Positions 5,652 to 48,458 of a stretch of 59,142 nt of DNA are shown in pieces (the stretch's first letter is position 1; every line of letters starts with the position of its first letter). Location of the stretch: the NCBI GenBank assembly GCA_024762935.1, contig JANTGK010000004.1, positions 1-59,142 on the forward strand, given 5' to 3'. Below the pieces are notes generated by a model. That model had not been told where the DNA came from, did no database searches, and was given only the letters and a program-made list of their open reading frames with translations. The position numbers and the translations under genes are program-made. The stretch is from Candidatus Peregrinibacteria bacterium. GTDB taxonomy: Bacteria; Patescibacteriota; Gracilibacteria; CAIRYL01; GCA-016699755.

Positions 5652-8600
5652 ATGCCAAAAAAAGCAAGTCAGGAGGGCGGTCATTCGTCTCATTCTTCTC
5701 CAAAGATTATTCGAAAGATTCTCCTTGTGTTAAGTCTTGTTTTTAGCGTGTTCGGACTTGTTCTTCTTGGTTTTTTTCTTTCACCTGAGCCACAGGTGCT
5801 CGGGAGTGATCAAACAGGAATTGTTCGAGAGATTGCTTCAAATGGAGTATTCGAGGTTCATTTTACTGGAAAAATGAATCGAGAATCAGTAGAAAAATCA
5901 CTCCTCTTTACCCCAGAAATTCCTGGAAAGTATGTGTGGAAGGCGGATGATTATGTACAGTTTGTTCCAACAGATGCTCTCCCATATGGGAAAAAAATTC
6001 TATTATCTATTTCTCCATCTGCAAAAGACATGTGGGGAAAAAATCTTCAAAAAGAAGTTGTATTTCAATACCTTGTTATAGGTCCACCTCAGGTAACCAT
6101 GATTTCACCAATTTCATCGGAAGACTGGGAGAATGTCCTTCGTATTCGAAAAGGGAATGAGGCAAAACTTCTTTCTGATCCAGTGCTTATCAAAAAGGGA
6201 CAACCAATCACTATTATGTTTGACAGACCTGTTCGCACTCTTGCTCTTGATGCTGTTTTGCCAGAAAATAAAGGGAATCCCCTCGATTTTCTTACTTTTG
6301 ATCCACCTCTTACTGGGGACATACGGTGGCTTGGAACAAGCGCATTCGAGTTTCTTATCCATGAAGAAGATTGGCCGAATGCCCAAGAGGTCACCGCAAC
6401 TCTAAAAAAAGGTTTTCCAAGTGTTGACGGAGGAAAAACAACAGAAGATATCAGTTGGAAACTTCGTACTCAATCGCCAAAACTTATTTCTGTTACTGCA
6501 GGAAAGACACCTCTTTTTGTAGAGAAGGATGGTTTTTCCGGAACAAATATCTTACCAGACTCAAGAATTGTCTTAGAATGGAATATGCCAGTGGAACTTG
6601 AAAGTTTTTTTGATCACCTCACAATAACTCCAGAGAGAAAGATAAAAGATGATTACATTATTCAAGATCAGAAGAATAAAAATCACGTATACCTTGATTT
6701 TACGCCTCCACTTGCACGGAATGAAAAGATTAATATATCTATTGATACACAAGTACTCCCTCTCGATGGGAAATTGGCGTCAGAAAAACCATACTCTATT
6801 TCATTTGAAACATTACCAAATACATGTGCAAAGCTTGTAAATGATTCGGGTGAGCAGGTCAAAGAATTGGAGATATATCCAGATGATTCTTTTTTCATAG
6901 AATTCTGTTCGTTTATGAATTGGTGGGATAGTGAAAAAGAAGAAGAGATTGATTTTAGTGAGAAACTAAAAGATCATATAACACTTTCTTCAGGTGCTTC
7001 ACTAGAAGATGCAGAGGTTTCATGTTCAGGAACAGGGTGTACTGTTTGGGTTCCAACGCTACCAGGAGAGGAATTTGATGTTTTTCTCTCTGAAGGTCTT
7101 ACTGATGTTTTTGGTCAGTCAATACCAGTATCAGATATATCTGCCCATATCTCAGTTCGTGATTATGCCCCAATGCTCTATCCCATGACTCGAGGTGGCT
7201 CACGTGGATTATATGATAGCGATGAGCCTCTGGGGGTCTTTTTTTCTGCACGGAATGTGTCTCAGGTACAAGTGACAACTTGTGAAGTTCCGAAAGAGAC
7301 TGTGCGAGATATTGAGGGGAAGGGCGGTTGGAAATGGTATGATTTTTCATGTAAGGAAGGAGGAAAAAATATCAGAAAAAAAACACAATCTGTACCTGGA
7401 GAAAAAAATGAGACAAATATTTTTGAGGTTTCCATTGAGAATGAAAATAGTGATACTTCTGTTATTTATTGGGAAGTATATTCTCCTGAAGTTCTCAGCC
7501 CTTGGGATAATGAACCGAGAAAATATTCTGGAGTAGCCTTTTCTGCTAATGCATCATTTACGGCAAAATCTGGAGATGGCTTTGTGACTGTTTGGGCGAC
7601 AGATTTTGAGACGGGGAAGCCTATTAGAAATTTCCCCGTAAAATTTTATGATGAATCTGGTGTAGCATTTGCTCAGGGAGTTACGGATGAAAAAGGACTT
7701 CTTACTGCAGAAAAACCTGATGGAGTACATGAATACTGGGCAGAAGGAATCTCACAAAAGTATAGGGCATATATCGGTTGGGATTGGGATTCAGGCGTAT
7801 CATCATGGGATTTTGGTATTTCACGTGATTGGCAAGAGAGTCCACGTATGATGGGAACAGTTTTTACAGATCGACCCATTTACCGACCCGGGCATACTGT
7901 ATTTTTTAAGGGAATCCTTCGAGAGGACAGAGATGTTCATTTTACGATTCCTAAAGACGAATCAGTATTTGTAGAAATCGAGAATAGTCGAGGGGAGAAG
8001 GTGTTTGAAAAAGAATTGGCACTATCTAAGTTCGGGACATTCGCAAGTTCATTTAAGATTAGTGATAAAAGTCCTACTGGAAGATTTTTTATTACAATAA
8101 AAAGACAAGAAGGGGAGAGACAGGTACCCTTTCTGCATTATACATTTTGGGTTGAAGAGTATAAAAAACCGGTCTTTCAGCTCAAATTTCTTTCAGAAAA
8201 AGAAGAATTTATATCTGGTGATGAATTTAATGTAGATATTTCCTCAGAATACTTTTTTGGAGCTCCACTTTCTGGCGCCGACATATCATGGTATGTGGTA
8301 GAGTCACCATTACATTTTGACAGGTGGTCCGGACAAGGGTGGTTCTCTTTTGGTGACGATCAGCAGTGGTGCTGGTGGGAGTGTTCGAGTGATGAGGAAG
8401 TAATTCATGAAGGGAGTGGAAAAACAGATGAGTCGGGCATGTTTCACATCTCTTTTAGTCCCGATGTGGGATCACATAAACTCTATACATTACGAGCAAC
8501 GGCAACAGATTCTGCCGGTCAATCTGTATCAGGAAGCAAAACATTTCCCTTCTTTGCTGGTGAATTTGTATTAGGGGTTCGAAGTCTTGATTTTTGGCTC

Positions 8601-11600
8601 GATGAAAGTGCAAAGCAGGCAAGGGCACAAGTGCTCGCAACAGATGTAGATGGAGAGGCCATTACGAGTAAAAAATTTCTTGCTACTTTGCAACATGTTA
8701 CGTGGAACAGCGTCAAGAAACGAGATATTGATGGGAATTATTATTGGGAAAGTGAGCAAGAACTTACTGATCTTGAGAGCATCACTGCCGTAACAAATGT
8801 GGGAGGAAAGGTTGATATTGCTTTTGATCTCAAAGATGAGGAAGAGTATTTTGGAGAATTGCGAATCTTTGTCCAATCAGAAGATGCAAGGGGGAATAAA
8901 ATCACGGCTTCTGATCGAGTTTGGCGAAGTTCTTCCAATTATTACTCTCCTTGGAGACAAGAAAATAATGATCGTATGGAAATTCATCTTGAAAAATCTG
9001 ATGTTTCACCAGGTGATACTATTATGCTTTTCCCTGCATCACCTTTTTCTGAAGAAGTTTCAGCCCTTATTACTGTAGAAAGAAGATCCATACTTTTTCA
9101 AGATGTTGTTTCATTAAAACCAGGTCAGCCTATTGTTCTTGATGTAACGCAGGAGATGGTACCCAATGCTTTTGTTTCAGTAGTTGCTTCAAAAGGGAAA
9201 GGGCCTTTGGGGAAAATTCACCGGTCTATACGTAAATTTGATGAATTAAAAGAAGATGAAAAGAGTCTCACTGAAAAAATGAATGTTCTGGAAGAGAAAA
9301 AGAATACTATTCTTGAAAAACTAGAAGGAGCAAATGATAATCTTGCTGCTTCTCTCAAAAAAGGGATGGGAAATATTGAAAAAGAACTCGACACCCTTCG
9401 GAGAAAGCTTGTCTCATCGCAGGAATCTTCTGAAAAATTGAAAGCAAAAATTATTGTTGAGTATGGGGATAAACCATTTCCAAAACTGGGCATAGAATCT
9501 CCACGTCCGGAAATAAAAGTGGGCATTGTTCCTGTTCGAGTATCTGCAGCCGAAAAACAGCTCAATGTTACTATTGTTCCCAATAAAGATGAATATATCC
9601 CTGGTGAAGACGTCTCTCTTATCTTTCGTGTAGAAGACTCTCTTGGGCAACCAGTACCAGAAGCTGATCTTTCTGTCGCCATTGTTGATGAATCCCTCTT
9701 GGCCCTCAAATCACGTCAAAATGAGAATATTTTTGATATATTTTTTCAACTGAGAGATTTAGGAGTCGAGACAGCGACATCTCTTACAAATTTTGTGGAT
9801 CGCCTTAATGTTACGGCCCAAAAAGGAGAAAAAGGTGGTGGTGGCGGTGGTGACCTGGACCTTTTAAAGAGAAAGAGGGGGGATTTTCGAGACACAGCAT
9901 TATGGGTTGCCAATCTTCATACAGATGAAAATGGATCTGCAAATGTCGATTTTACTCTTCCGGATAATACAACAACATGGCAGGCATGGGTAACGGCAAA
10001 TACTATTGATTCTCGTTTTGGAAGTAAAAAAAGGAATTTTATGAGTAGAAAACCTCTTTTGTTGTCCCCTCTGCTTCCACGGTTTCTCTTGGCAGGAGAT
10101 GAGGCTGTGGTGGGAGCTTCTGTTCACAATCAATCTGGTGGTGAGTTAGTAGTGAGTACAGAATTTTCAGCTGAAAATGTTGAGATTTTAAAGCGAGAAA
10201 CAACCAGTTTTCGCTTGAAGGATGGGGGGAGAAAAGACATATACTACACCATTCGAGCTCTTGGAAAAGAAGAAACTCCTCTCGCTGAATTTGATCCAGC
10301 TCTCTTTACCTTTTCTGTTCAAGGTGACAAAGAGACTGCGGTCGATACTCTTGAAATTTCAATTCCAATTCAGGCACCTGCAGTAGGAGAGACAGTGGCA
10401 GTGAGTGGATTTTTACGAGAAGAAGACTCTTCACAGAGAGAAAATATTTTTGTTCCGAACGGTATTTTGCAAGATATCGGCAGTTTTTTTGTCTCCCTGA
10501 CTGCTGGAGTAGTCGGAAACATCTCTGATGGACTTTCTTCTCTTGTGAGATTCCCTTATGGGTGTGCAGAGCAGATTATGAGTGCACATCTTCCAAATGT
10601 TGCACTTGTGCAAATGGAAAAGGAAATTGGACAAGAATTTATTGGAATTGATTCAGAAGAAGTGGGAAAGATGGTTAACGATGGTCTTCAGAAATTATAT
10701 CAGCTTCAGGAACCTGATGGTGGGTTTGGTTTTTGGCCAGACTCAATGCGAAGTTATCCATATCTTACAGCATATGTTCTTTTTGGACTTGAGCAAACTC
10801 GGGCAGCTGGATATACCGTTGATACCGATGTTATCCGTCAGGCACAGAGATATCTTGCGAAGAAGCTGATTGAAAGTATGTCAGAAGAAAAAATGGATTT
10901 GGAGTCTTCCTATTCATTTGCGGATTCTGATGCACGTGCTTTTGCAGCGTTAGCACTCAGTTATGCGAGTGATTTCGACAAATCTTTAATCTCTGTGCTT
11001 TTTGATGATAGATTCACGATGTCTCCGGAAGGAAAAGCATATCTTCTTATGGCTGCTGAGCGAGTCTTGGATGAAAATTCACAGATTCCCGAGAAGCTTA
11101 TAAGAAGTATTGAAAGTGCTGCAAAACAAAGTGATAGAACAGCATTTTTTCAATCTGGAGATAATCAGTGGAATTTCTCGTCTGACATTCGTTCCACGGC
11201 GGTAGTTCTTCTTTCTCTTCTGAAGGCTGAGCCAAATCATCCACTCATTCCAAAAATTGTTCAATTTTTGAGGGACAACAAACACTCTTCTGCAAAATAT
11301 ATAGGCGGTCCATGGGGAAGCACACAAAACACAGCATGGACACTTTTGGCACTTACCGAATTTATAAAACAAAACCCATCTGGGAAAAGTGATGTGCAAG
11401 TAGCCTTAAATATGAACCCCGTTATTACCGACGAACTTCTCCCTCATGGGAAGAGTGTAGACATCTCTCTTCCTATTGCAAATCTTCTTGTTGGAAAAAT
11501 AAATGGGGTAGATGTGAATAAAGAAGGATCTAGTATCGGGTATGATATGGTACTGAATTACTTCCTGCCTGTGGAAAAGGTATTTGAACGTAACCATGGA

Positions 11601-12053
11601 TTTGGAGTTGTTCGTCAGTATTTCACTTTGTCAGACGATGAGAAGCAATCACCTGTTACTTTCATAAAAAAAGGTTCTCTTCTAAAGGGAAAAGTAACTA
11701 TTCTTGTCCCAGAATCTCGTTTTTATACTGGGGTAACTATTCCATTACCGGCCGGCTTTGAAGCCATTAATTTCGCTCTAGAAACAGAAGATCAATCACT
11801 GAAGAAGCATATTGATACATGTGAAAATTGGTGGTGTCCTGGTGATAATCTCTGGAGATTTTCCCATAAGGAGTATCGTGATGATCGAATATTTCTTTTT
11901 GCCGATTATCTTCCTTCTGGAAGATATGAATTTGAATACCTTGTTCGAGCTACAACTGCTGGGAAGTTTCAGCAGTTGCCGGCAAAAGCAGAAGAAATAT
12001 ATCATCCTGAGATTTTCGGACATAGTGATGGAGACATGTTTATTGTAAAGTAG
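5652..12053 (+). CDS. Alpha-2-macroglobulin family protein, membrane anchored
   Basis: At 2133 residues this is the largest gene in the window. Residues about 19-42 form a signal anchor and the rest should be extracytoplasmic. A long series of beta-sandwich (MG-type) domains follows. Residues about 1196-1270 are a charged coiled coil (starting FDELKEDEKSLTEKMN), and a poly-Gly stretch lies near residue 1396, before the region typical of this fold (DTALWVANLHTDENG, LPDNTTTWQAWVTA). The thioester motif YGCAEQ is intact, with Cys1638, Glu1640 and Gln1641, followed by the alpha-helical thioester domain (LQEPDGGFGFWPDS). In this family the thioester traps attacking proteases. Most bacterial homologues sit beside a penicillin-binding protein gene (pbpC); none is here, which makes this a stand-alone copy. 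Confidence 0.93.
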   Translation: MPKKASQEGGHSSHSSPKIIRKILLVLSLVFSVFGLVLLGFFLSPEPQVLGSDQTGIVREIASNGVFEVHFTGKMNRESVEKSLLFTPEIPGKYVWKADDYVQFVPTDALPYGKKILLSISPSAKDMWGKNLQKEVVFQYLVIGPPQVTMISPISSEDWENVLRIRKGNEAKLLSDPVLIKKGQPITIMFDRPVRTLALDAVLPENKGNPLDFLTFDPPLTGDIRWLGTSAFEFLIHEEDWPNAQEVTATLKKGFPSVDGGKTTEDISWKLRTQSPKLISVTAGKTPLFVEKDGFSGTNILPDSRIVLEWNMPVELESFFDHLTITPERKIKDDYIIQDQKNKNHVYLDFTPPLARNEKINISIDTQVLPLDGKLASEKPYSISFETLPNTCAKLVNDSGEQVKELEIYPDDSFFIEFCSFMNWWDSEKEEEIDFSEKLKDHITLSSGASLEDAEVSCSGTGCTVWVPTLPGEEFDVFLSEGLTDVFGQSIPVSDISAHISVRDYAPMLYPMTRGGSRGLYDSDEPLGVFFSARNVSQVQVTTCEVPKETVRDIEGKGGWKWYDFSCKEGGKNIRKKTQSVPGEKNETNIFEVSIENENSDTSVIYWEVYSPEVLSPWDNEPRKYSGVAFSANASFTAKSGDGFVTVWATDFETGKPIRNFPVKFYDESGVAFAQGVTDEKGLLTAEKPDGVHEYWAEGISQKYRAYIGWDWDSGVSSWDFGISRDWQESPRMMGTVFTDRPIYRPGHTVFFKGILREDRDVHFTIPKDESVFVEIENSRGEKVFEKELALSKFGTFASSFKISDKSPTGRFFITIKRQEGERQVPFLHYTFWVEEYKKPVFQLKFLSEKEEFISGDEFNVDISSEYFFGAPLSGADISWYVVESPLHFDRWSGQGWFSFGDDQQWCWWECSSDEEVIHEGSGKTDESGMFHISFSPDVGSHKLYTLRATATDSAGQSVSGSKTFPFFAGEFVLGVRSLDFWLDESAKQARAQVLATDVDGEAITSKKFLATLQHVTWNSVKKRDIDGNYYWESEQELTDLESITAVTNVGGKVDIAFDLKDEEEYFGELRIFVQSEDARGNKITASDRVWRSSSNYYSPWRQENNDRMEIHLEKSDVSPGDTIMLFPASPFSEEVSALITVERRSILFQDVVSLKPGQPIVLDVTQEMVPNAFVSVVASKGKGPLGKIHRSIRKFDELKEDEKSLTEKMNVLEEKKNTILEKLEGANDNLAASLKKGMGNIEKELDTLRRKLVSSQESSEKLKAKIIVEYGDKPFPKLGIESPRPEIKVGIVPVRVSAAEKQLNVTIVPNKDEYIPGEDVSLIFRVEDSLGQPVPEADLSVAIVDESLLALKSRQNENIFDIFFQLRDLGVETATSLTNFVDRLNVTAQKGEKGGGGGGDLDLLKRKRGDFRDTALWVANLHTDENGSANVDFTLPDNTTTWQAWVTANTIDSRFGSKKRNFMSRKPLLLSPLLPRFLLAGDEAVVGASVHNQSGGELVVSTEFSAENVEILKRETTSFRLKDGGRKDIYYTIRALGKEETPLAEFDPALFTFSVQGDKETAVDTLEISIPIQAPAVGETVAVSGFLREEDSSQRENIFVPNGILQDIGSFFVSLTAGVVGNISDGLSSLVRFPYGCAEQIMSAHLPNVALVQMEKEIGQEFIGIDSEEVGKMVNDGLQKLYQLQEPDGGFGFWPDSMRSYPYLTAYVLFGLEQTRAAGYTVDTDVIRQAQRYLAKKLIESMSEEKMDLESSYSFADSDARAFAALALSYASDFDKSLISVLFDDRFTMSPEGKAYLLMAAERVLDENSQIPEKLIRSIESAAKQSDRTAFFQSGDNQWNFSSDIRSTAVVLLSLLKAEPNHPLIPKIVQFLRDNKHSSAKYIGGPWGSTQNTAWTLLALTEFIKQNPSGKSDVQVALNMNPVITDELLPHGKSVDISLPIANLLVGKINGVDVNKEGSSIGYDMVLNYFLPVEKVFERNHGFGVVRQYFTLSDDEKQSPVTFIKKGSLLKGKVTILVPESRFYTGVTIPLPAGFEAINFALETEDQSLKKHIDTCENWWCPGDNLWRFSHKEYRDDRIFLFADYLPSGRYEFEYLVRATTAGKFQQLPAKAEEIYHPEIFGHSDGDMFIVK

Positions 12054-34854: not shown

Positions 34855-35841
34855 TCATTGTATTTGCCCTCCACAGCTGCTTCCACAACCAGCGGTGCAG
34901 CCATAACAATAATCCTTGAGTGGAATACTCTTTATTATATTCAGATTGTCTTGTTGAAGAAGGAAATCAAGAGTTATTGGTTCTCCCTCTTGAGATAGAG
35001 CTGGAATTTTTTCCATTTGATGAAAATCACAATCATAGACATTTCCATCATAATCAATTGAGAGTTGAGTTTTACACATGAGTCCAGAGACGGTTTTTGG
35101 ATTAAAGTGTCGAGCAAGAAATGAGATATATTTTTCCAGCAGTCCTTTTCTTTTGAGGTATGACTTCATTCGTCCAATAGGGATATTGGAGATGGTCAGG
35201 AGGTTATTAAAAGAAATATGAAAGTGTTTCATCAGAAATTTTTTATATTCCTTTTCAAGGTTTTCTTGAGGGGGAGGGAGGCTAAATTTTTCTTCCGAAG
35301 AAGGAAGCTGTGGATTATAAACGAGATCAAGGATGAGGTCTTTTCCATACCCAAGACTGTTGAGCTGTTTGATAGCATCAACAGATTCCTCGAAAACCCC
35401 TTTTCCTCTCATAGTATCAACGTTATCTTTGAGGTAGCAGGGGAGGCTCGCAACAACTCGAACTTTTTGTTTTGCAAAGTATTCCGGAAGATGCTCGTAT
35501 CCGACCACATAAAATATGGTGAGATTGCTTCGCACAATGACTTCCATATTTTTTGATCGTGCTTTTTCGACAATCCTCTCAAATCCATTATTCATTTCTG
35601 GGGCTCCTCCAGTGAGATCGATTGTTTTTATTTGTGGGGAGTGGTCGATAATTTCTAAAATTTGTGCGAGCACTTTTTCTGAAAGCTCTTCTGTTCGATG
35701 CGGTCCTGCTTCCACATGACAATGAGAGCAGGCAAGGTTACATCTTCTCCCGAGATTGATTTGAAGAGTTGATACGTTCTCTTTTGTAAGCGGTTTGCCA
35801 AGAGTGTGGGCAAAACTTTTTTGCTTTGAACTTTTGGTCAT
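34855..35841 (-). CDS. Radical SAM/Cys-rich protein, ArsS-like
   Basis: The 328-residue protein has the radical SAM cluster motif CNLACSHC (Cys 34, 38, 41), followed by DLTGGAPEM (the GGE-like SAM motif) and, in the C-terminal Cys-rich part, CKTQLSIDYDGNVYDCDFHQ and the terminal CYGCTAGCGSSCGG. This is the layout of the radical SAM/Cys-rich family that includes ArsS, which attaches the 5'-deoxyadenosyl group of SAM to methylated arsenic in arsenosugar formation. Whether this one uses arsenic is unproven. Its ATG overlaps the stop of the phosphorylase gene (ATGA), indicating coupled translation. Confidence 0.88.
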   Translation of the reverse strand: MTKSSKQKSFAHTLGKPLTKENVSTLQINLGRRCNLACSHCHVEAGPHRTEELSEKVLAQILEIIDHSPQIKTIDLTGGAPEMNNGFERIVEKARSKNMEVIVRSNLTIFYVVGYEHLPEYFAKQKVRVVASLPCYLKDNVDTMRGKGVFEESVDAIKQLNSLGYGKDLILDLVYNPQLPSSEEKFSLPPPQENLEKEYKKFLMKHFHISFNNLLTISNIPIGRMKSYLKRKGLLEKYISFLARHFNPKTVSGLMCKTQLSIDYDGNVYDCDFHQMEKIPALSQEGEPITLDFLLQQDNLNIIKSIPLKDYCYGCTAGCGSSCGGQIQ

Positions 35842-36605
35842 GATGCAAAACGATATACAAAATTGTCAAAAGAGTAGGTCTTCTTCAGTTGAGTAAAATG
35901 AGAGATAACCGTATGAAAGGCATTTTTTGATTTTTCAAGATTTTTACTGAGCTGATCAAGAGGAGTTGGATTCTCAAGTACTCCATTTGCATAGTCGATA
36001 GGGAACGTCATTAGTCCGTATGCCATTTCGAGTTCATTTGCCAAGACAGCTTCTGGTCCACACGTTTGGGAGAGGATTGTTCCTCCGACCGATTGGAAAA
36101 ATTTGATTTCTGATTGAGTATTAAATCTTGGTCCATTGGCATGAACATACGTTCCTCCCTTTTGGGCGTCAGGAAAAATATCAAATATATCTTTCTGAAT
36201 TTGAGAATGTAAAAGTGACCCAGCAATAAGGTGTCCGCGATCTTTTCCCGGTGTCTGGAAAACAGAACATATGGAGCCATCTGGGAATCGATTCTCCGGA
36301 AAGAAAATATCATCTGGTATAAGTGGCTTTGCTAGTTGAACTTCTGGAGAAAGGGCACCAACGACTGAGAGGGAGATAACTTCTGTTACCCCTTCTTGTT
36401 TGAGAGCACTAAAATGGGCCAAATGATTTATTTGGCTCGAGAGTGTGCGATGATCTTCCCCGTGCCTCGGAAGAACAATAAAATCATCATGAGTACCATC
36501 TCCTTTTCCAAACAGAAAATCTCCCTCTCCATAGGGAGTTGTCACTCTTTTTTTTGTGGTATGAGGGAAATCATAACATCCAGAACCGACAAGAAATGCA
36601 ATCAT
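35838..36605 (-). CDS. MTA/purine nucleoside phosphorylase-like protein
   Basis: The 255-residue protein belongs to the methylthioadenosine/purine nucleoside phosphorylase family: VTTPYGEGDFLFGK, VLPRHGEDH (phosphate site), NGPRFNTQSEIKFF, then SQTCGPEAVLANELEMAYGLMTFPIDYANG, the base-binding stretch. Members split 5'-modified adenosines with phosphate. Coupling by a 4-nt overlap to the ArsS-like gene suggests it acts on that enzyme's 5'-deoxyadenosyl product or on SAM by-products (5'-deoxyadenosine, MTA). Confidence 0.92.
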   Translation of the reverse strand: MIAFLVGSGCYDFPHTTKKRVTTPYGEGDFLFGKGDGTHDDFIVLPRHGEDHRTLSSQINHLAHFSALKQEGVTEVISLSVVGALSPEVQLAKPLIPDDIFFPENRFPDGSICSVFQTPGKDRGHLIAGSLLHSQIQKDIFDIFPDAQKGGTYVHANGPRFNTQSEIKFFQSVGGTILSQTCGPEAVLANELEMAYGLMTFPIDYANGVLENPTPLDQLSKNLEKSKNAFHTVISHFTQLKKTYSFDNFVYRFAS

Positions 36606-40864: not shown

Positions 40865-41875
40865 TTAACTGGCTCTTGATCGTATTTGTGCAGCCCTTTT
40901 TGCAGCAGCTTGTTGAGCTTTTTTTTGCTGAGCAAGAAGTTCTGCCTGTTTTTTTGCTTTTGCTTCCGCTTTTGCTTGTTGTTCCTGAGCTGCCTTTTCT
41001 GCTGCTTTTTGTCGTTCTTTTTCCTGATCTGCAGCTATCTGTGCTAATCGTTTTTGTTCTTGCTCTGCCTGTAGTTCAGCTAATCGTGCTGCTTCTTGCT
41101 CTGCTTGTTTTTTCTGTTCTCGTGCTGCTATGCGCTGATTCTTCACATTTTCTGCTGTCAAGAGACCTAATCGTTTTTTTTCTTCTCTCTCTGATTCTTC
41201 TTTTTTTTGTTTTCTCGCTGCATCAGCTGCAATTTTCTTTTCCATATTTTTTATTTTCTCTAAAGCTTCAGCTTCTGCTTGATCTGCAATGCGTTTTTGT
41301 TTTTCTTCTTCCTCGGCTGATTCCTTCGTTTCTTCTTGATTTTGCTCAAACTCTATCTGCTCAAACTCTAAGGGTTGCCTCTCCTCTTCTCGTTGTTGTT
41401 CGATGACAATACTTGTTGTTTCTTTTTCTGCAATTTTTTCTGTTTGAGCCCGTTCTTTATTCCAAGCAGTAAATGTGATATTTTTTTCTTCTGGTAGTAC
41501 AGCTAAAGAAGACTTAATAATTTTTCCAGTAAAAGCATTCACTGTAATTTCTCTTTTTTTATAGTTTTCCTGCACTTTTATTGTGATTGCTGGTTGTAAA
41601 TTTCTGAATTCATACCATGAATAGAGTGATATGACTCCAAATTTTTCTGCTACAAAATCTTCCGCAATATATTTTTCTATTTTTCCATCAAATTCATAAT
41701 TCGCGAGTACTCTGTTCCCGATCATATGAGAAAAAATAAGAAGTGTGCCAAGGCATAGAGTAGAAAAGAGAATCCCAATATGAGTGAGGACCTTTTTCTC
41801 TCGTATTGGAGAGAAAAAGTATGATCCGATAGCAAAAATGAGCACTCCACCGGTAACAAGAAGGAACGTATTCAT
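40865..41875 (-). CDS. Membrane protein with long Glu/Lys/Ala/Gln coiled coil
   Basis: The 336 residues begin with two membrane segments (about 3-20 and 30-50). A small domain follows (about 55-125; ITIKVQENYKKREITVNAFTGKI resembles the end of a PepSY domain, a weak call). Then comes a long charged coiled coil from about 165 to the end, built of E/K/R/A/Q runs. It follows the ferric-reductase-like gene with a 4-nt ATGA overlap, so the two are translated together. It could be a scaffold for that redox protein; this is inference. A hydrophobic 182-codon frame on the other strand is a shadow of the repeats. Confidence 0.75.
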   Translation of the reverse strand: MNTFLLVTGGVLIFAIGSYFFSPIREKKVLTHIGILFSTLCLGTLLIFSHMIGNRVLANYEFDGKIEKYIAEDFVAEKFGVISLYSWYEFRNLQPAITIKVQENYKKREITVNAFTGKIIKSSLAVLPEEKNITFTAWNKERAQTEKIAEKETTSIVIEQQREEERQPLEFEQIEFEQNQEETKESAEEEEKQKRIADQAEAEALEKIKNMEKKIAADAARKQKKEESEREEKKRLGLLTAENVKNQRIAAREQKKQAEQEAARLAELQAEQEQKRLAQIAADQEKERQKAAEKAAQEQQAKAEAKAKKQAELLAQQKKAQQAAAKRAAQIRSRAS

Positions 41876-42540
41876 GGTTTTTTATTTATAAAAAGCGTGA
41901 GAATCGGAATTTTTATTTTTGCAAATGAAACTCCCCATAGAACTATCAATGCAAGGGCTGGTAATACGCTATTCCATACCTCAAATGCCATAAATGTACC
42001 CTCATTAAATGCCCGAATGAGAACTATATGTATGATAATTACGAAAAAAAATATATATGTAAGACGGTGCAATTTTTTCCAATATCTTTTGAGGATTTTT
42101 ATTGAAAATATATTTGATGTGAGCGTCAGAATGAGAGCAATAATAAACCCAATCATTCCCCAAAAGTAATAATCTGAAATGTTCCATATTTCTGAATCCA
42201 AAAACCCACTCGGTAAAGTGATATTTCCATTAAGAAAATACCCAATACTATGAGCTACTGCAAAAGATCCACATAAAATTCCTAATTCTTTTCTCAGTGG
42301 CATAAGCCCGCGAAAGATCTTTAGATCAGTGAAAATTTCTGAGAGTGGTCTGATAAAGAGGATAAAAAGAAGTATTTGCCAACTTATCTCTCCCAAGCTA
42401 CGAAAAGACTCTGGAAAAATGAATATCCCGGCCATTGGTATTATGGAAAGGAAGATAAGTATTTGCTTTATAAGAGGAAGATGGGGGATTCTCCCGTTTA
42501 CAATGGGATTAACAAGATATGTAGATAGAAATTCTGACAT
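41872..42540 (-). CDS. Ferric-reductase-like (MsrQ/YedZ-type) haem membrane protein
   Basis: The 222-residue protein has about six hydrophobic helices. The arrangement fits the ferric reductase transmembrane domain: an AVAHSIGYF His in one helix, then WKKLHRLTYIF and VIIIHIVLI supplying further His positions for b-type haem. There is no NAD- or flavin-binding C-terminal domain, so it should pass electrons across the membrane from a separate donor. It lies 62 bp after apbE and overlaps the next gene by 4 nt. Confidence 0.8.
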   Translation of the reverse strand: MSEFLSTYLVNPIVNGRIPHLPLIKQILIFLSIIPMAGIFIFPESFRSLGEISWQILLFILFIRPLSEIFTDLKIFRGLMPLRKELGILCGSFAVAHSIGYFLNGNITLPSGFLDSEIWNISDYYFWGMIGFIIALILTLTSNIFSIKILKRYWKKLHRLTYIFFFVIIIHIVLIRAFNEGTFMAFEVWNSVLPALALIVLWGVSFAKIKIPILTLFINKKP

Positions 42541-42602
42541 TAATGAATATATTTTTAAATACTATTAGTATAGCAAAAAATCTGAAGAAAAGCTTTAGAT
42601 TA

Positions 42603-43493
42603 TTATGCAAAATATCCCATCACATTTTCTTCAATGCAAAAATTACGCCCCTGTTCTTCCCCAAGCAAAAAACAAGTTGTTGCAAAACTATCTGCCTCTA
42701 TACAGGTATCAGCAATAATACTGACACTTTGCAATGGGTTTTCCTGAGATGAAGGATTTTTATTATTTTTTCCTGATACGAGATGATGGAAACATTTTTC
42801 TTGATTATTTTCTGTAATATTCCATCTTCTTTTATATGATCCACTTGTTGCCAGTGCTTGATCTTCAATTTCTATCCAAAATATATTTTTCTCTTCATTG
42901 GTAAAATCGCTTGGATCCGCAATACCAATGCTCCATTTTTCAAGAGAAGAAAATCGTCCTCTGGCAAATATATCTCCTCCCGCATTGATGCAAAAATTAT
43001 TGTAAGAAGTATCTAAAATTTTCACACCCCTATCTACGGCATATCCTTTGACGCACCCTCCTAAATCGAGAAATGCATGTGGGGGAAGGGAGATTTCTCT
43101 CAACTGTTTATCTCGTTGTATTGCCTCATAATCCAGTGAAATGTGTTGACCCTTTTTAGGAAATTTTTTGGAAAATTTCCCTGAGTAAAAATCTGTACTG
43201 TATCCAAGTGAAGCAAGAGAGATAAGAGGGTTAAAAACCCCATCAGTTTTCTGAGCGAGTTGCAGGGCAAATTCAAGAACTTCAAAAAATTCTGGAGAAA
43301 CTCTTTTTTTGCGCTGCGTATTTACAGAGGAAAGCTGAGAATCTGCATCAAATCGGGAAAATATTTTCTCAAGTCTGTTGAATTCATGAAAAACTTTGTG
43401 AGCATTTCTTTGTGCTTCAATTTTTTTTCCCTCGGAAAGAGGGATAAAAATTTCTATTTCCGTTCCCATGATTTTATTTTGGAATGTGTACAT
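42603..43493 (-). CDS. apbE: ApbE-family FAD:protein FMN transferase
   Basis: ApbE splits FAD and attaches FMN covalently to a Thr/Ser of exported flavoproteins. The 296 residues contain the family blocks: IMGTEIEIFIP at the start, RFDADSQLSSVN, FLDLGGCVKGYAVDRG, INAGGDIFARG and, near the end, ATSGSYKRRW and HHLVSG; the Asp/Thr metal-site region is TCIEADSFATTCFLLG. No lipobox or clear signal peptide is visible, so it may act inside or be exported by another route. It is first in a leftward operon with the haem protein and the coiled-coil protein. Confidence 0.93.
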   Translation of the reverse strand: MYTFQNKIMGTEIEIFIPLSEGKKIEAQRNAHKVFHEFNRLEKIFSRFDADSQLSSVNTQRKKRVSPEFFEVLEFALQLAQKTDGVFNPLISLASLGYSTDFYSGKFSKKFPKKGQHISLDYEAIQRDKQLREISLPPHAFLDLGGCVKGYAVDRGVKILDTSYNNFCINAGGDIFARGRFSSLEKWSIGIADPSDFTNEEKNIFWIEIEDQALATSGSYKRRWNITENNQEKCFHHLVSGKNNKNPSSQENPLQSVSIIADTCIEADSFATTCFLLGEEQGRNFCIEENVMGYFA

Positions 43494-43526
43494 AAGAAAA
43501 ATCTACGATAACTCTAGTATAGACTC

Positions 43527-43880
43527 TTAATATGAAGATTTACTGAAAAAAAGAAAATCTTTTTTTAGCGAACACTTAATAATAAAGGTACTCCCGTTTT
43601 CCTCTGCGCTCTCTACCGAGATATTCCAATGATTTGCATCACATTTTTTTACTATTGATAATCTGAGTCCAGAACGTTGCTTTGATGAGAACTTCTCGGT
43701 GCATCTCCTTTATAAAATCATTCAAAAATATGAGAAATTTTTGTTTCAGGAGGCCCTTTCCAAAATCTTGCACAGAGATCTTTTCAGATTTCTGAAGCGA
43801 AACACGTATCTTTCTTCTTGTATGCGAAAATTTTATTGCGTTATGGAGAGGGGTAGATATTCTATTTCTCCATTTTTTTG
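43527..43880 (-). pseudogene. Remnant of a sensor histidine kinase (HATPase domain)
   Basis: Reading the minus strand in pieces gives an N-box (LHNAIKFSHTRRKIRVSLQK), then SVQDFGKG, then in a second frame PETKISHIFE, a TGA, FYKGDAPRSSHQSN, and in a third frame SGLRLSIVKKCDANHWNISV with AEENGSTFIIK, ending at TAA (43529-43527). These match the order of the N, F and G boxes of histidine kinases, but frameshifts and one in-frame TGA (where the family has Arg) break it. The dimerisation and sensor parts are missing. It lies between apbE and tRNA-Thr. Confidence 0.8.
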
Positions 43881-43979
43881 ATCTGCTTCTCGCGAGTATT
43901 TTCTCCAGAGAGTCCTATGGGTATTTTGTTATGTCATTTTCTTTTTTTTAAAAAAGGACAGACTGTTTGAAAAAAACTT

Positions 43980-43985
43980 TATAAT
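43980..43985 (+). promoter_or_regulatory. -10 element of tRNA-Thr
   Basis: A perfect TATAAT lies 29 bp before the tRNA. The -35 region (GGACAG area) is poor. Transcription would start about 20 bp before the mature tRNA. Confidence 0.6.
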
Positions 43986-44014
43986 CGGAACATTAATATT
44001 TAGAATAGTTTTGT

Positions 44015-44090
44015 GCCACCATAGCTCAGTTGGTAGAGCGGTCGCTTCGTAAGTGATAGGTCACCGGTTCAATCCCGGTTGGTGGCTCCA
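44015..44090 (+). tRNA. tRNA-Thr (CGT)
   Basis: Acceptor GCCACCA pairs with TGGTGGC; D arm GCTCAGTTGGTAGAGC; anticodon stem GTCGC/GTGAT (with G-U pairs) around loop TTCGTAA, anticodon CGT; T arm CCGGTTCAATCCCGG. CCA is encoded at 44088-44090 after discriminator T. Confidence 0.96.
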
Positions 44091-44250
44091 TTTTTCGCTT
44101 TGCTGTGAAGTATGAACAGGTAATGGAAGAATGCCCTTCGAAGCTTCAGCGAAGAATGGGCAAAGCTTTGAACAAAAACTCAGGAAATGCCTTGGACAGC
44201 AATTCCGCTTTGCGGTGATTACTCACTCCATCCTATTGCGCTTTGGCGAA
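44091..44250. repeat. tRNA-Thr downstream segment with repeated tail
   Basis: The tRNA end CTCCA plus the following TTTTTCGCTTTGCTGTGAA is echoed at 44226-44251 as CTCCATCCTATTGCGCTTTG then GCGAA, and partly at about 44208-44219 (CGCTTTGCGGTGA). The final CTCCATCCTATT (44226-44237) is identical to 40717-40728 after tRNA-Gly. A hairpin TGCCCTTCG/CGAAGAATGGGCA lies between. No gene is seen. Confidence 0.75.
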
Positions 44251-44355
44251 TTTTTTTGTGATTAAAATATGGCATTGCAAGACCTGACCCAAAATTTGTG
44301 TAGAAACGACTTTTTTGGTGGCACTTCTCAAATAAATTCCTGTTATAATAACATC

Positions 44356-44532
44356 ATGACTTTTGAATATGTTTATGTGGCAATAATCCTTTCAACTTAT
44401 TTGTGGTTTATTACTGCACCTCTTACAGTTTTATTAGTGGTGTTTATTTTCTTGCAATATAAAAGGAAGAGATGGCTTCCAAAGAAAATAGCTCTTTTTT
44501 TATCGAATTCATATACTCTGTATTTCTCATAA
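44356..44532 (+). CDS. Possible small membrane protein (58 aa)
   Basis: From the ATG at 44356 (MTFEYVYVAIILSTYLWFI) one long hydrophobic stretch is followed by a basic KRKRWLPKK. An in-frame upstream ATG (44269) is less likely. The layout of one helix plus a positive flank looks protein-like, but there is no family match. The next small frame overlaps it, so a frameshifted larger gene is also possible. Confidence 0.4.
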   Translation: MTFEYVYVAIILSTYLWFITAPLTVLLVVFIFLQYKRKRWLPKKIALFLSNSYTLYFS

Positions 44533-44624
44533 TCTATGGAAAGGGATACCGCCTTTTTTTGTTTTCATTTCTTGGTATCTGGCTTGTTTATTGTCTTTTT
44601 GTGGTGCTATTCACATTTGATTGA
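44472..44624 (+). CDS. Possible small membrane protein (50 aa), overlapping the previous frame
   Basis: The ATG at 44472 follows a good ribosome-binding sequence (AGGAAGAG). The product MASKENSSFFIEFIYSVFLI continues as a second hydrophobic segment (LFLFSFLGIWLVYCLFVVLF). It overlaps the preceding small frame by 61 bp in another frame. It may be a genuine small protein or the second half of a broken one. Confidence 0.4.
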   Translation: MASKENSSFFIEFIYSVFLIIYGKGYRLFLFSFLGIWLVYCLFVVLFTFD

Positions 44625-44783
44625 TTCTTGGATAGGAAGAATTCTGGGGACACGTAACAGATATAGACAAAATTTAATATTGTTGTCACCAAAATACTCA
44701 TATTTCATTCTCCAATAAGCTCTACGAAAGAGCTCCAGTACATCATTTGTTTGATGGGCCAATACATAAAAAATTCCTTTATG

Positions 44784-44812
44784 TTGTGTTATATATAAAA
44801 TAATTGTATAAT
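44784..44812 (+). promoter_or_regulatory. Promoter before a 44-codon frame
   Basis: TTGTGT (44784-44789), a 17-bp spacer and a perfect TATAAT (44807-44812). The start codon of the small frame is 22 bp downstream. Confidence 0.6.
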
Positions 44813-44833
44813 AATATGATTTAAAACAAACAC

Positions 44834-44968
44834 ATGAAAAAAAAGGAAAATCAACGTTCATCATCTCAGCAGCAAAAAAAAATAAATCGACCAGGTGTGG
44901 CCCCAGTAAAAGTACTTCTCTCTGTTCGTCGAAATATTCGTGGCACTTTTGGTCTGAGAGGTGTGTAG
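44834..44968 (+). CDS. Small basic protein (44 aa), unknown
   Basis: The frame starts MKKKENQRSSSQQQKKINRP and ends VRRNIRGTFGLRGV. It is rich in Lys, Arg, Gln and Ser and has no hydrophobic helix, so a nucleic-acid-binding peptide is conceivable. A good promoter precedes it. I recognise no family; it does not look like a known ribosomal protein. Confidence 0.45.
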   Translation: MKKKENQRSSSQQQKKINRPGVAPVKVLLSVRRNIRGTFGLRGV

Positions 44969-45067
44969 AGGAAGTGATGCGCAATAATCTGGTTTCTTTG
45001 TATTCCGGAAGTGTCGATTATTTCTTGGCTTTCTTTTTAAAAATACTTTGTAAAAATTGTATTGCTA

Positions 45068-45095
45068 TTGAATTGTTGTTCAATTTTTGTATACT
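45068..45095 (+). promoter_or_regulatory. Promoter of the 185-aa membrane protein gene
   Basis: TTGAAT (45068-45073), 16-bp spacer, TATACT (45090-45095). The start codon at 45117 is 22 bp after the -10. The -35 overlaps an inverted repeat TTGAA...TTCAA (45068-45083). Confidence 0.6.
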
Positions 45096-45116
45096 TTCAG
45101 GTGTTATTTTCCAAAA

Positions 45117-45674
45117 ATGGAACTCACATTAACCTGGGACCTCTTCGTACTTGTTTTCTTTATGATCATTGTCTCGTACAGTGTAATGATTGGGAAAGAT
45201 CAAACCATTAAGGTTATATTGAGTTCATATATTGCTATTCTCGCAAGTGATGCCATTGGAAATCTCGTCTCTCGTCTTATTGGTGGTGGGACAGTTTCAA
45301 ATGTTTTAGTGATTCCTTCAGAAAATAAGGCAGTCATTATGGTAAAAATTGGGATATTTATTCTCCTAACGGTTGCACTGACAACCCGTGGGGCATTTGA
45401 TATTCTCATTTCAGATGAAAAATCACCCTTTATGAGAATAATGATGTTGGTAGCATATGGAATTCTCTCTGCTGGACTTATTATTTCAACAATACTGGTT
45501 TATGTTTCTGGTGTATCACTTTTGTCTACTGGGAGTCTTTTCTCTCAAAATCCAGTCCAAGATATGGCAGAGGGGAGTCGGCTTGTAAAACTTATGGTTG
45601 AGAATTACTCTATATGGTTTTCTCTACCAGCAGTTGCTTTTGTAATCTCTAGTCTTTTTGGAAGAGAGGATTAG
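45117..45674 (+). CDS. Multi-pass membrane protein of unknown function
   Basis: The ATG at 45117 (MELTLTWDLFVLVFFMIIV) gives 185 residues with about four hydrophobic segments (near 8-27, 35-60, 77-95, 108-135) and a final one near the C-terminus. The first two helices, with an intervening GKDQTIKVILSSYIAILAS, faintly recall CvpA-type proteins, but I would not assign it. It stands alone with its own promoter, followed by convergent tRNAs. Confidence 0.7.
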   Translation: MELTLTWDLFVLVFFMIIVSYSVMIGKDQTIKVILSSYIAILASDAIGNLVSRLIGGGTVSNVLVIPSENKAVIMVKIGIFILLTVALTTRGAFDILISDEKSPFMRIMMLVAYGILSAGLIISTILVYVSGVSLLSTGSLFSQNPVQDMAEGSRLVKLMVENYSIWFSLPAVAFVISSLFGRED

Positions 45675-45793
45675 TCCTAATTGTAAGAGAAAAAGAGACA
45701 ATAATCGTTATATTTTATTTGACAAAAACTGTTCCTGCTCAGCTTATTAAACCCCTTTTGATACAACAGAAATAATTGTAGATGAAGAAGTTA

Positions 45794-45868
45794 TGGTAGC
45801 CCGTAGGGGAATCGAACCCCTGTTACCAGGATGAGAACCTGGCGTCCTAACCCCTAGACGAACGGGCC
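45794..45868 (-). tRNA. tRNA-Glu (CTC)
   Basis: On the minus strand GGCCCGT pairs with ACGGGCT; the anticodon stem CCAGG/CCTGG encloses loop TTCTCAT, anticodon CTC; T arm AGGGGTTCGATTCCCCT. Discriminator A and encoded CCA (45794-45796). It is 26 bp downstream of tRNA-Lys, probably in one transcript. Confidence 0.95.
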
Positions 45869-45894
45869 ATGTATTGTTATATAGAATATCTCTC

Positions 45895-45969
45895 TGGTGG
45901 GTGAGGTGGGACTCGAACCCACGGCCAATGGCTTAAAAGGCCACTGCTCTACCACTGAGCTACTCACCC
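45895..45969 (-). tRNA. tRNA-Lys (TTT)
   Basis: On the minus strand GGGTGAG pairs with CTCACCC; D arm GCTCAGTGGTAGAGC; anticodon stem GTGGC/GCCAT with loop CTTTTAA, anticodon TTT; T arm GTGGGTTCGAGTCCCAC. Discriminator A and encoded CCA (45895-45897). Confidence 0.96.
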
Positions 45970-46336
45970 ATGTATGAAGATATTTTAAGGTCGGAAGCCA
46001 TGATCATCATTTTAGAGGGCTATTATCTCGCATCTGCGAGACTATCTGCTTGTATGACCATATGAAACCTCTGAATAGGAAAGGCGTCAAAAACGCCGAA
46101 AGATTGTACAAGGATTTTTTTTAATTGTGCAAGTCTTTTCTTCTTCGTTTGCATACACTTCCTGAAAACTTTTCAATGTCAGGTATTGAATGTGTTGGTG
46201 TGAGTAGTAATGATTTTGTTCAATGCTGAGAGTGTCCACTTGAGAATGCAAAAAAGAGAAAAGGCCATGTGGAAATTATGGCTGTTCTAGGGCAGGAAAT
46301 CTTTAGTACGGGATAGGGCACAAAAGGAAAGGAATA
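45970..46336. other. Gene-free 367 bp with two hairpins
   Basis: No gene is seen. TCTCGCA-TC-TGCGAGA (near 46027-46042) and GGCGT-CAAAA-ACGCC (near 46084-46098) are perfect small stems. The stretch should hold the promoter of the leftward tRNA pair; TTGACG in the second hairpin (minus strand) is a possible -35 without a clear -10. Confidence 0.5.
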
Positions 46337-47170
46337 TTATTTTTTGATGATTTTACCGATAAAGACGGCGATACTTGTTACAAGAGTGGCTGCAAGGGCT
46401 GGATGAGAAGAAATAAGAGAAGGCACACCTCCCTGGGTCAGAAAAAATGCAAAAAGAAATCCACCAAAAATACCAGCAGCAATTTGACTTTTTTGTTCTG
46501 ATGGAGAAGTGCGAGGGTTTGTAAAAAGAAAAAGAATAATAAAAAGAAGAATAGGGCTCATGAGGACTTCTTGTATATTTCCAATCCCATATCGGAAGAA
46601 CCCAAGAAAAAGAAATGCTGAACAATAGAAAAAGAGAATGAGGTGTATTTTTTCCCATTTTGCAATATTCATGTAGAGCCATCCCAGTAGGAGGAGGGTA
46701 GTAAGAGGAAGAACAAGGCTTCCAATGGTAATATCTGGTAACTGAAGACCCCACCAAGTGATATCATATTTTTCTTTCGAAATAAAAGGAGCGAGAGCTA
46801 ATATAGCCAGTATACTTGCAGAGATACTATCGAGGACTGGTTGTCCTTTTATAAAGAAAAAATATTGAATAAAAAGACCAATAAAAACTGCGGCAGACCC
46901 GAACAGATACCCTTGCCATCCAAATTGATAGTCAAGTATTAAAAAGAAAAGGAGGGCAATGCTCATTCCTTGCTCTGGTGAAACTGTTTGTTTAAATATT
47001 TTTGTAAAAAGAATAATTGGGAGTGCAGAAAAACCTATAATGGATGTAAAATGAAATAGAAGATCAGATGAAATACCATTTTTCATAAAAGTATATACGA
47101 CAGTAATAAACGTAAAACTACCAAGAAAATAAAGTGTTTTTCCAAAAGGGGTAGGCACGGAAATGTTCAT
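46337..47170 (-). CDS. RnfD/NqrB-like multi-pass membrane protein
   Basis: The 277 residues contain about nine hydrophobic segments. Two stretches recall the RnfD/NqrB family: GQPVLDSISASILAILAL in the middle and ILFLFTNPRTSPSEQKSQIA near residue 215, which parallels the FFMATDxVTSPxTxxG block. The SGAT flavinylation site of true RnfD/NqrB is not seen, and no other Rnf or Nqr gene is nearby. It is divergent from the FMN-binding-domain gene with about 150 bp between. The call rests on motif resemblance by eye. Confidence 0.65.
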   Translation of the reverse strand: MNISVPTPFGKTLYFLGSFTFITVVYTFMKNGISSDLLFHFTSIIGFSALPIILFTKIFKQTVSPEQGMSIALLFFLILDYQFGWQGYLFGSAAVFIGLFIQYFFFIKGQPVLDSISASILAILALAPFISKEKYDITWWGLQLPDITIGSLVLPLTTLLLLGWLYMNIAKWEKIHLILFFYCSAFLFLGFFRYGIGNIQEVLMSPILLFIILFLFTNPRTSPSEQKSQIAAGIFGGFLFAFFLTQGGVPSLISSHPALAATLVTSIAVFIGKIIKK

Positions 47171-47273
47171 AAGACACTAAAAAGTAATGAGTTCTATTTA
47201 TTCTATCTTATAGAAAAATTCATTTTTGAGAAACGTGCTCTGGTGGAGTTTTGAGAAGTTCTTACAGAGCTTC

Positions 47274-47303
47274 TATTGATTATTTTGGGAAAAATGATAC
47301 AAT
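47274..47303 (+). promoter_or_regulatory. Promoter of the FMN-binding-domain gene
   Basis: TTGATT (47274-47279), 18-bp spacer, TACAAT (47298-47303). The transcript would begin near 47310, after the first ATG (47304), which favours the second ATG at 47322 as the start. Confidence 0.55.
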
Positions 47304-47321
47304 ATGGGGAAAATAAGTTTT

Positions 47322-48458
47322 ATGGATATAAAAAATATTACTATCGCAGTGCTCTCATTGATGCTTTTTGGAGTCTTTATTGCCTCTAATATGCCAGAGA
47401 AAAAAGAATTGGTGGTAAACAATAGTCCTGAGATACAAGATGTTTTATCAACAGAAGAATATCCTCTTCTTCAAAATCAGGAAGTGGCTATAAGCAGGGG
47501 TGACATATGGAAATCAGAAAATTTTGATACTGATCATATGACAGAAGAAGAGATGGTAGCTTTATTTGAGAGTCTTTGGGGACCTTCAGAGGAAGATGAT
47601 TTTAATGAGGATGTTTTCTTTAATGATCTTGACGAAAATACTTTTCCTGACGAAGCAGTCAAGCAAGACTCACTTCAGGAAGAAGGGGGGAATAATCAAA
47701 AAGAAAGGAGCGAAAAAACCACTCGGACTCCAGTTCTTACAGCATCTATTCTTCATTTAGAAAATGCTACCATTAATTCTCAAAAAAAAGAGAATATAGC
47801 AAAACCATTAAAAAGAAGTGAGGCAGGAAAAGAAAAAAAACATACCGCAGATCAGGAAGAACTTTCCTTCCCTCCATTAGAAGTGCGGACAACAACAGGG
47901 ATACAACCAGAAACCCTTCTTCCGCAACAAAAAGAAGAGTTGGTATCTCCAGAATCAAACACTCTTCATCTCTTACCCGATGATTTTAAGGATCAATTAC
48001 AAGAAACTCACCCTCCAGATATTGTTCCTGCACAAGTCTCAGATGCAAAACAACCACCTCCTCAAAAAGATATTCAAAAACCTCTGATGTCTCAAGAAAG
48101 GAGTCAGGAGTCTGGTTCTCCCGAATCCAAAGAAGATGAAGCTCTTTTCCAATATAAAAATGGAACATATCGTGGATATGGTGCGTATAAGAGTGGAAAC
48201 CATGGAGAACAAATAGGGGTTGAGATTGTTATTTCTAATGATATTGTAGAAAGCTTTCACATCATCTTGAGTGGATCGACGCAAAAGGAAAAAGAACTTC
48301 AAAAACAATTTGAAACGGATATCATTTCATATGTACTGAATCAGTATTTATTAAATATTCCTCGATTTACAGCTCTCGATTCTGATTCTGCAGTTCCTCT
48401 TGGTTTCTATAGAGCCATTGAATCTGTGAGGGCACAGGCAAAAAATGAACTTTTTTAG
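47322..48458 (+). CDS. Membrane-anchored protein with C-terminal FMN-binding-like domain
   Basis: From the ATG at 47322 (MDIKNITIAVLSLMLFGVF) the 378 residues begin with one membrane anchor (about 5-22). A long acidic, Gln/Pro/Ser-rich linker follows (about 25-280). The C-terminal 95 residues look like an FMN_bind domain: YKNGTYRGYGAYKSG, then IGVEIVISNDIVESFHIIL, and the end TALDSDSAVPLGFYRAIESV. In canonical domains the last block reads D-x-x-S-G-A-T, where Thr receives FMN from ApbE; here it reads DSDSAVP, without Thr. It may be a degenerate domain, may bind flavin non-covalently or may use a Ser. Confidence 0.75.
   Translation: MDIKNITIAVLSLMLFGVFIASNMPEKKELVVNNSPEIQDVLSTEEYPLLQNQEVAISRGDIWKSENFDTDHMTEEEMVALFESLWGPSEEDDFNEDVFFNDLDENTFPDEAVKQDSLQEEGGNNQKERSEKTTRTPVLTASILHLENATINSQKKENIAKPLKRSEAGKEKKHTADQEELSFPPLEVRTTTGIQPETLLPQQKEELVSPESNTLHLLPDDFKDQLQETHPPDIVPAQVSDAKQPPPQKDIQKPLMSQERSQESGSPESKEDEALFQYKNGTYRGYGAYKSGNHGEQIGVEIVISNDIVESFHIILSGSTQKEKELQKQFETDIISYVLNQYLLNIPRFTALDSDSAVPLGFYRAIESVRAQAKNELF

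Follow-up and report, generated by a model that had tools for sequence, protein, structure and literature searches.

The stretch of DNA considered here (the window, 59,142 nucleotides) is contig C4 of a 1.376-Mb, 96% complete draft genome of a Candidatus Peregrinibacteria bacterium from the class Gracilibacteria. TGA is a sense codon in other families of the class, which fits this placement within the Patescibacteria. It encodes two separate electron-transfer modules, not one split system. Module B (40865-43493) is a single operon with the genes of the flavin transferase ApbE, a ferric-reductase-like haem membrane protein and a stalk protein, and is an MsrQ-like flavinylation system; module A (46337-48458) consists of an RnfD/NqrB-like and a divergent FMN_bind-like protein and is a compact form of the published Nqr/Rnf-like systems. 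The more general finding concerns the end of the stalk protein. Throughout the class, exported proteins encoded beside ferric-reductase-linked ApbEs without FMN_bind genes have [D/N]-T-x-[S/T]-x-A-S as their last residues, and this is a new observation. The MsrQ-like system of module B thus has what looks like a new type of ApbE substrate, and the combination of tail, haem protein and stalk suggests a previously undescribed means of keeping an electron carrier on the outside of the cell. Genomes are labelled by G numbers: G000 is the genome of the window, G001 a relative of the same order, G124 one of the same genus, and the others are further genomes of the class. The features of module B are the following:

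42603..43493, minus strand: ApbE1, flavin adenine dinucleotide (FAD):protein flavin mononucleotide (FMN) transferase, first gene of the operon (PF02424, E=1e-51, 176 bits, cut-off 25.6)
41872..42540, minus strand: ferric-reductase/MsrQ-like haem membrane protein (PF01794, E=2e-11)
40865..41875, minus strand: stalk protein with two membrane helices, a small beta region, a disordered linker, a long helix and a C-terminal tail (hydropathy, single-sequence model, homologues in G001 and G109)
40871..41314, minus strand: predicted continuous helix of the stalk, residues 188-335 (148 residues), about 22 nm if straight (single-sequence AlphaFold2, predicted local distance difference test score (pLDDT) about 82-96 from residue 200)
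40865..40888, minus strand: tail QIRSRAS-stop with the putative flavinylation site at the last Ser (class-wide [ST]-x-A-S-stop at ApbE loci, resemblance to D-x-x-[ST]-G-A-[ST])

The C-terminal tail at ApbE loci of the class

The tail was first noticed on five proteins of these modules ending in [S/T]-x-A-S, and the scanning of further loci yielded more examples (NSASGAS and NSTTSAS in G047, NTRTRAS and HTRTRAS in G060, NTTTAAS in G084, NTRSRAS in G111, DTTTAAS in G144). A tail-like open reading frame (ORF) of G101, ending in SFLTNAS, was treated as a chance ORF. For a fresh test, the six-frame ORFs of 60 previously unseen ApbE loci were searched for the tail and for control tails of like composition. 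Of the 2695 ORFs, 32 had the tail; in the subset of 840 ORFs whose N-terminus is hydrophobic, the tail was on 28 and the control tails were on 0-3. Many of the carriers are lipoproteins of 56-66 residues made up of signal peptide, linker and tail, and a G144 micro-lipoprotein ends in DTKTRAS.

It is conspicuous that the tail goes together with the ferric reductase. Among 112 ApbE loci it is present at 27 of the 44 with a ferric reductase and at 5 of the 68 without (p=7e-10); at the ferric-reductase loci (window excluded) it was seen in 22 of the 27 without FMN_bind as against 4 of the 16 with it (p=4e-4). Because the loci share ancestry, the p-values should be taken as a rough guide. In other words, the tail replaces FMN_bind at the ferric-reductase loci, which fits an alternative substrate. 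The tail is present in at least eight families of the class; more distant relatives, retrieved by a contig scan with the ApbE alignment, showed no tail. In a quick ApbE tree, some rows of which are long, the window ApbE joins those of G109 and G001 (SH-aLRT 100), and the three lie inside a 47-row set (SH-aLRT 96), in which all but two of the 32 tail-linked ApbEs are found (30 of 32).

The association was also seen at the level of whole genomes. A strict DNA pattern, D/N-T-x-T-x-A-S-stop, gave 24 matches in 19 of 341 class genomes, and 19 of the matches are at an ApbE locus. ApbE is present in 18 of these 19 genomes, compared with a class rate of 110 in 353 (31%), whereas the reversed pattern, used as a control, gave 18 matches in 17 genomes, six of which have ApbE. 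Five strict matches lie elsewhere in the genomes, and four of these terminate short exported proteins (G144, G189, G090 and G212). The window's own tail is not matched by the strict pattern. Outside the class, the remainder of the phylum has the pattern at chance level (6 matches), and the tail was therefore rejected as a phylum-wide signal. No description of such a tail was found in the literature searched, most subscription papers being outside that search.

Module B and its stalk protein

The first-pass annotation had read five genes of the window as one extracytoplasmic flavin/electron-transfer system split over two loci. All five ORFs were found where it had placed them, and the field that it had named, extracytoplasmic flavin and haem electron transfer, is the right one. 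The domain calls stand, that of FMN_bind by homology only; a single system is not supported.

In module B, PF02424 is above its curated cut-off in ApbE1 and Ferric_reduct (PF01794) above its cut-off in the haem protein, in which His97 and His171 are invariant across nine homologues. With a PF01794 protein encoded beside ApbE, the operon has the arrangement that defines an MsrQ-like flavinylation system. An FMN_bind gene, typical of such systems yet not obligatory, is missing from the operon, and the nearest FMN_bind-like domain is in the other locus, on the opposite strand. The equivalog of MsrQ proper, the methionine sulfoxide reductase subunit (NF003831), gave 47.3 bits, which is below the cut-off of 130. 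The window ferric reductase alone found no relative as a contig-scan query. The order ApbE, ferric reductase, stalk is the same in G109, as reconstructed from two contigs overlapping by about 240 bases; in G001 the adjacency of ApbE and ferric reductase is probable, with a contig break between the two genes and no contig overlap found. A response regulator, a histidine kinase and an S-layer homology (SLH) protein are among the neighbours of ferric-reductase modules in relatives. Moreover, the haem membrane protein is fused to ferredoxin, FAD and nicotinamide adenine dinucleotide (NAD) domains in G109 and G009 (the ferric-reductase segment of G009 was called by similarity and a custom profile only), which makes a cytoplasmic NAD(P)H or ferredoxin donor likely. 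Such a donor for the window haem protein was not located in this genome.

The stalk ORF and the ferric-reductase ORF overlap by 4 bases (41872-41875), in agreement with the translational coupling read earlier, and in both G001 and G109 the gene of a stalk homologue immediately follows that of the ferric reductase. The stalk is the coiled-coil partner that had been singled out as unfamiliar; it became the informative part, as it bears the C-terminal tail resembling the ApbE motif. In the structural model the long helix ends at this tail, and the long part of the protein is probably outside the cell, judging from a charged loop that follows the first membrane helix. A PepSY match in the stalk protein was below threshold (13.1 bits, cut-off 24) and was not used.

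The tail as a candidate flavin site

The sequence recognised by ApbE is D-x-x-[S/T]-G-A-[S/T], with the modification on its final residue; seven residues are enough, and terminal tags perform best (PMC12052999). The class tail matches this motif save for the Gly. Among 48 tails, 31 have N or D at -6, 35 have T at -5 and 34 have R or K at -2. The search pattern itself demanded Ser/Thr at -3, Ala at -1 and Ser at 0, so the conservation of these three is no evidence, while the D/N at -6 is outside that pattern and also fits the ApbE motif. Nearly or fully canonical forms occur as well (NSASGAS in G047, DTTTAAS in G144), and in G124 a 112-residue lipoprotein encoded beside ApbE (L183 7585-7923) has a canonical DATTGAS near its C terminus and no recognised domain. 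A G087 protein (L145 4569-5750), in which an FMN_red domain is fused to a ferric-reductase-like membrane segment, carries the tail SRLSQAS; a precedent is provided by FMN_red proteins that are flavinylated on an unstructured C-terminal extension (PMC11334425). The window tail, QIRSRAS, keeps Ser at -3, Ala at -1 and Ser at 0, and Asp at -6 and Gly at -2 are absent.

Based on what is observed here, i.e. the genes, their homologies, the conservation of the modules and the class-wide tail with its ApbE link, the stalk protein is most likely the substrate of ApbE1, tipped with a flavin and fed by the haem protein; that the flavin is covalent we infer. ApbE would attach FMN to the last Ser of the tail (IRSRAS) of a protein that has no FMN-binding domain. 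Two membrane helices would anchor the stalk, and the linker and the predicted long helix may hold the flavin away from the membrane. Electrons would then run from a cytoplasmic NAD(P)H or ferredoxin donor to the haem protein, from there to the tethered flavin, and finally to an acceptor outside the cell, for instance ferric iron or quinones. In module A, the RnfD/NqrB-like subunit would act with its FMN_bind-like partner, which is more likely flavinylated by an ApbE encoded on another contig of the genome, C37. The explanation as a whole, with two modules, a stalk flavinylated on its tail and fed by the haem protein, and the C37 ApbE serving module A, is in our judgement fairly probable. A wider proposal is that the class uses a minimal, non-domain ApbE substrate, namely a C-terminal tag on stalks, linkers and 56-66-residue lipoproteins, flavinylated before export by a cytoplasm-type ApbE, the tethered flavins being reduced by the haem protein and reaching across the envelope. 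This proposal we regard as evenly poised.

Several observations weigh against a flavinylated tail. The main doubt is the Arg or Lys that 34 of the 48 tails have at -2 instead of Gly; in the enzyme tested, already a Gly-to-Ala change in the motif reduces flavinylation (PMC12052999). The window tail is without D/N at -6, and some ferric-reductase ApbE loci have neither the tail nor a detected FMN_bind. Proteins of G084 and G144 bear the tail in addition to an FMN_bind domain, so the tail may serve another purpose. The ApbE tree is a quick one only. Finally, the ApbEs of the class look cytoplasmic whereas the candidate substrates are exported: 109 of 112 have no hydrophobic N-terminus, i.e. neither a signal peptide nor a membrane helix. 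ApbE1 has none either and thus no mark of an extracytosolic location (which the family does not require), and this weakens the claim that ApbE works outside the cell. Either the substrates receive their flavin while still in the cytoplasm, or ApbE itself leaves the cytoplasm by an unrecognised route.

Some of these points would equally suit a docking or sorting signal, whose Ala-Ser is read by another envelope component, e.g. the haem protein, ApbE modifying FMN_bind-type proteins only. The strictly C-terminal position of the tail and the mostly basic residue at -2 are what such a signal might look like, and the proteins with both tail and FMN_bind domain as well as the apparently cytoplasmic ApbE are in line with it. 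Nevertheless, the tail agrees with the ApbE motif in D/N at -6, T/S at -3, A at -1 and S at 0, it stands in for FMN_bind at ferric-reductase loci, and ApbE accompanies it in 18 of 19 genomes, among them genomes with the tail gene at some other place than the ApbE locus; a docking signal is, in our view, an unlikely but serious alternative. The class-wide tail could also be real and the SRAS of the window a chance resemblance, in which case the coiled-coil protein would be a structural stalk or an assembly factor of the haem protein. QIRSRAS indeed has neither D/N at -6 nor T at -5, and the G001 homologue has an immunoglobulin-like extension and no tail. However, G001 has an alanine/glutamine-rich extension on a neighbouring protein, the gene of which is cut off by the contig end, the G109 homologue ends in QSRSRAS although its alignment to the window protein spans the N-terminal parts only, and in a 292-kb sample of the window's genome the stalk is the only convincing exported ORF that bears the tail. 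A chance resemblance is thus improbable.

Module A and the relation to known systems

Module A has the following features:

46337..47170, minus strand: compact RnfD/NqrB-like membrane protein of 277 residues with no NAD-binding domain and no SGAT motif (PF03116, E=8e-8, 32.4 bits; alignment; profile)
47304..48458, plus strand: membrane-anchored protein with one N-terminal hydrophobic helix, a long linker and a C-terminal FMN_bind-like domain (hydropathy; homology to class FMN_bind lipoproteins)
48144..48458, plus strand: the FMN_bind-like domain, in which DSDS (48378-48389) replaces SGAT as the acceptor region (alignment; Ser82 of the domain invariant in 13 sequences)

The score of the RnfD-like protein with NQR2_RnfD_RnfE (PF03116) exceeds the cut-off of 27.7, which upholds the earlier call. 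A profile of eight class homologues, seven of which match PF03116, finds solved RnfD chains (7zc6_D, E=2e-7), and PF00175 has no match in the 277-residue protein. The FMN_bind call stands in part: the window protein does not match PF04205, but its domain is homologous to class lipoproteins, including one on contig C37 of the same genome (29% identity, E=6e-10), and 6 of the 13 aligned family members match PF04205. The domain is therefore called divergent FMN_bind-like. Instead of the ApbE motif D-x-x-[ST]-G-A-[ST] it has TALDSDS, which retains nothing of the motif but the acceptor Ser; in the C37 paralogue the acceptor region reads NGSS. Folded alone, the domain had a pLDDT of 53 and no meaningful match in the Protein Data Bank (PDB), and its profile gave only chance matches against the PDB.

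In the first seven genomes besides that of the window to yield an RnfD-like gene, this gene points away from that of an FMN_bind lipoprotein, and ApbE comes after the lipoprotein gene. Searching the whole class gave RnfD-like genes in 25 other genomes, in some as a fusion of RnfD with an NAD-binding domain, a type that is a published Nqr/Rnf-like system (PMC8238504, PMC11334425). The window pair has no neighbouring ApbE; C37 carries an ApbE together with the FMN_bind-like lipoprotein, and in the tree this ApbE is grouped with RnfD- and FMN_bind-linked ApbEs (SH-aLRT 98). The cognate ApbE of module A is more likely that of C37 than ApbE1. A membrane-transporter-like ORF (L084 11856-12539, G000) is convergent with the C37 ApbE and runs off the contig end; it is NhaD-like by eye only.

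The two loci might still form one integrated system, with ApbE1 as flavin transferase for the FMN_bind-like protein and the ferric reductase as partner of the RnfD-like protein; they are 3.4 kb apart, and no second ApbE gene adjoins the RnfD/FMN_bind pair. Yet they are on opposite strands with tRNA genes in between, the acceptor region of the FMN_bind-like domain is degenerate, and the tree places the C37 ApbE, not that of the window, among the RnfD-linked ones. By the test of co-occurrence in related genomes, which the first-pass annotation had itself proposed, a single system fails: 5 of the 25 other genomes with an RnfD-like gene have PF01794, in none of them next to that gene, and with relatives of the window ferric reductase in 46 of 145 class genomes this is no enrichment. 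Co-evolution of the two loci was rejected on these grounds, and we give a single system little credence.

With two modules as the preferred reading, each can be set beside published systems. Module B resembles the MsrQ-like flavinylation systems (Meheust et al. 2021, PMC8238504) in its PF01794 haem protein beside ApbE and in the NAD-binding domains fused to it in relatives; an FMN_bind gene is typical there, whereas here the candidate substrate is a C-terminal-tail protein without a flavin-binding domain. Module A resembles the two-subunit Nqr/Rnf-like systems (PMC8238504; PMC11334425), known from candidate-phyla bacteria, in which an RnfD/NqrB-like protein without flavinylation site is paired with an extracytosolic FMN_bind protein and ApbE; it differs in that the window protein has no C-terminal NAD-binding domain, the ApbE is non-adjacent and the FMN_bind-like domain is degenerate. 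The ApbE-flavinylated FMN_red proteins (Huang et al. 2024, PMC11334425) likewise have the motif on a flexible C-terminal extension, but their flavin docks into their own FMN_red domain, which most tail proteins do not have (the one in G087 does). Multi-flavinylated proteins (PMC8238504) are also proposed electron carriers across the envelope, and SLH proteins are found in some of their clusters, as in the G109 operon; they have several FMN_bind domains, unlike the single putative tag on a stalk or linker here.

The ApbE substrates of the cited papers belong to folded proteins (FMN_bind, NqrB/RnfD, DUF2271, DUF3570, Flavodoxin_4, FMN_red), so a free C-terminal tag, if true, would be the simplest natural flavin carrier. 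Candidate-phyla bacteria were strikingly underrepresented in a flavinylation survey that used signal peptides (PMC8238504), which ApbEs without a signal peptide may explain. If the tag is real, surveys based on FMN_bind and signal peptides overlook flavinylation in these bacteria, and external electron transfer would be indicated in very small genomes.

The window contains other genes of interest. A conserved four-helix membrane protein with no assigned function is encoded at 45087-45674; its homologue in G076 (L092 2921-3478) is 51% identical and about 900 bases from a ferric-reductase gene. A 2133-codon ORF (5652-12053) is very large for a genome of this kind. ArsS, the radical S-adenosylmethionine protein of arsenosugar biosynthesis, is encoded at 34855-36605 (415 bits, cut-off 300) next to a methylthioadenosine-phosphorylase-like gene, which is unexpected for a small genome.

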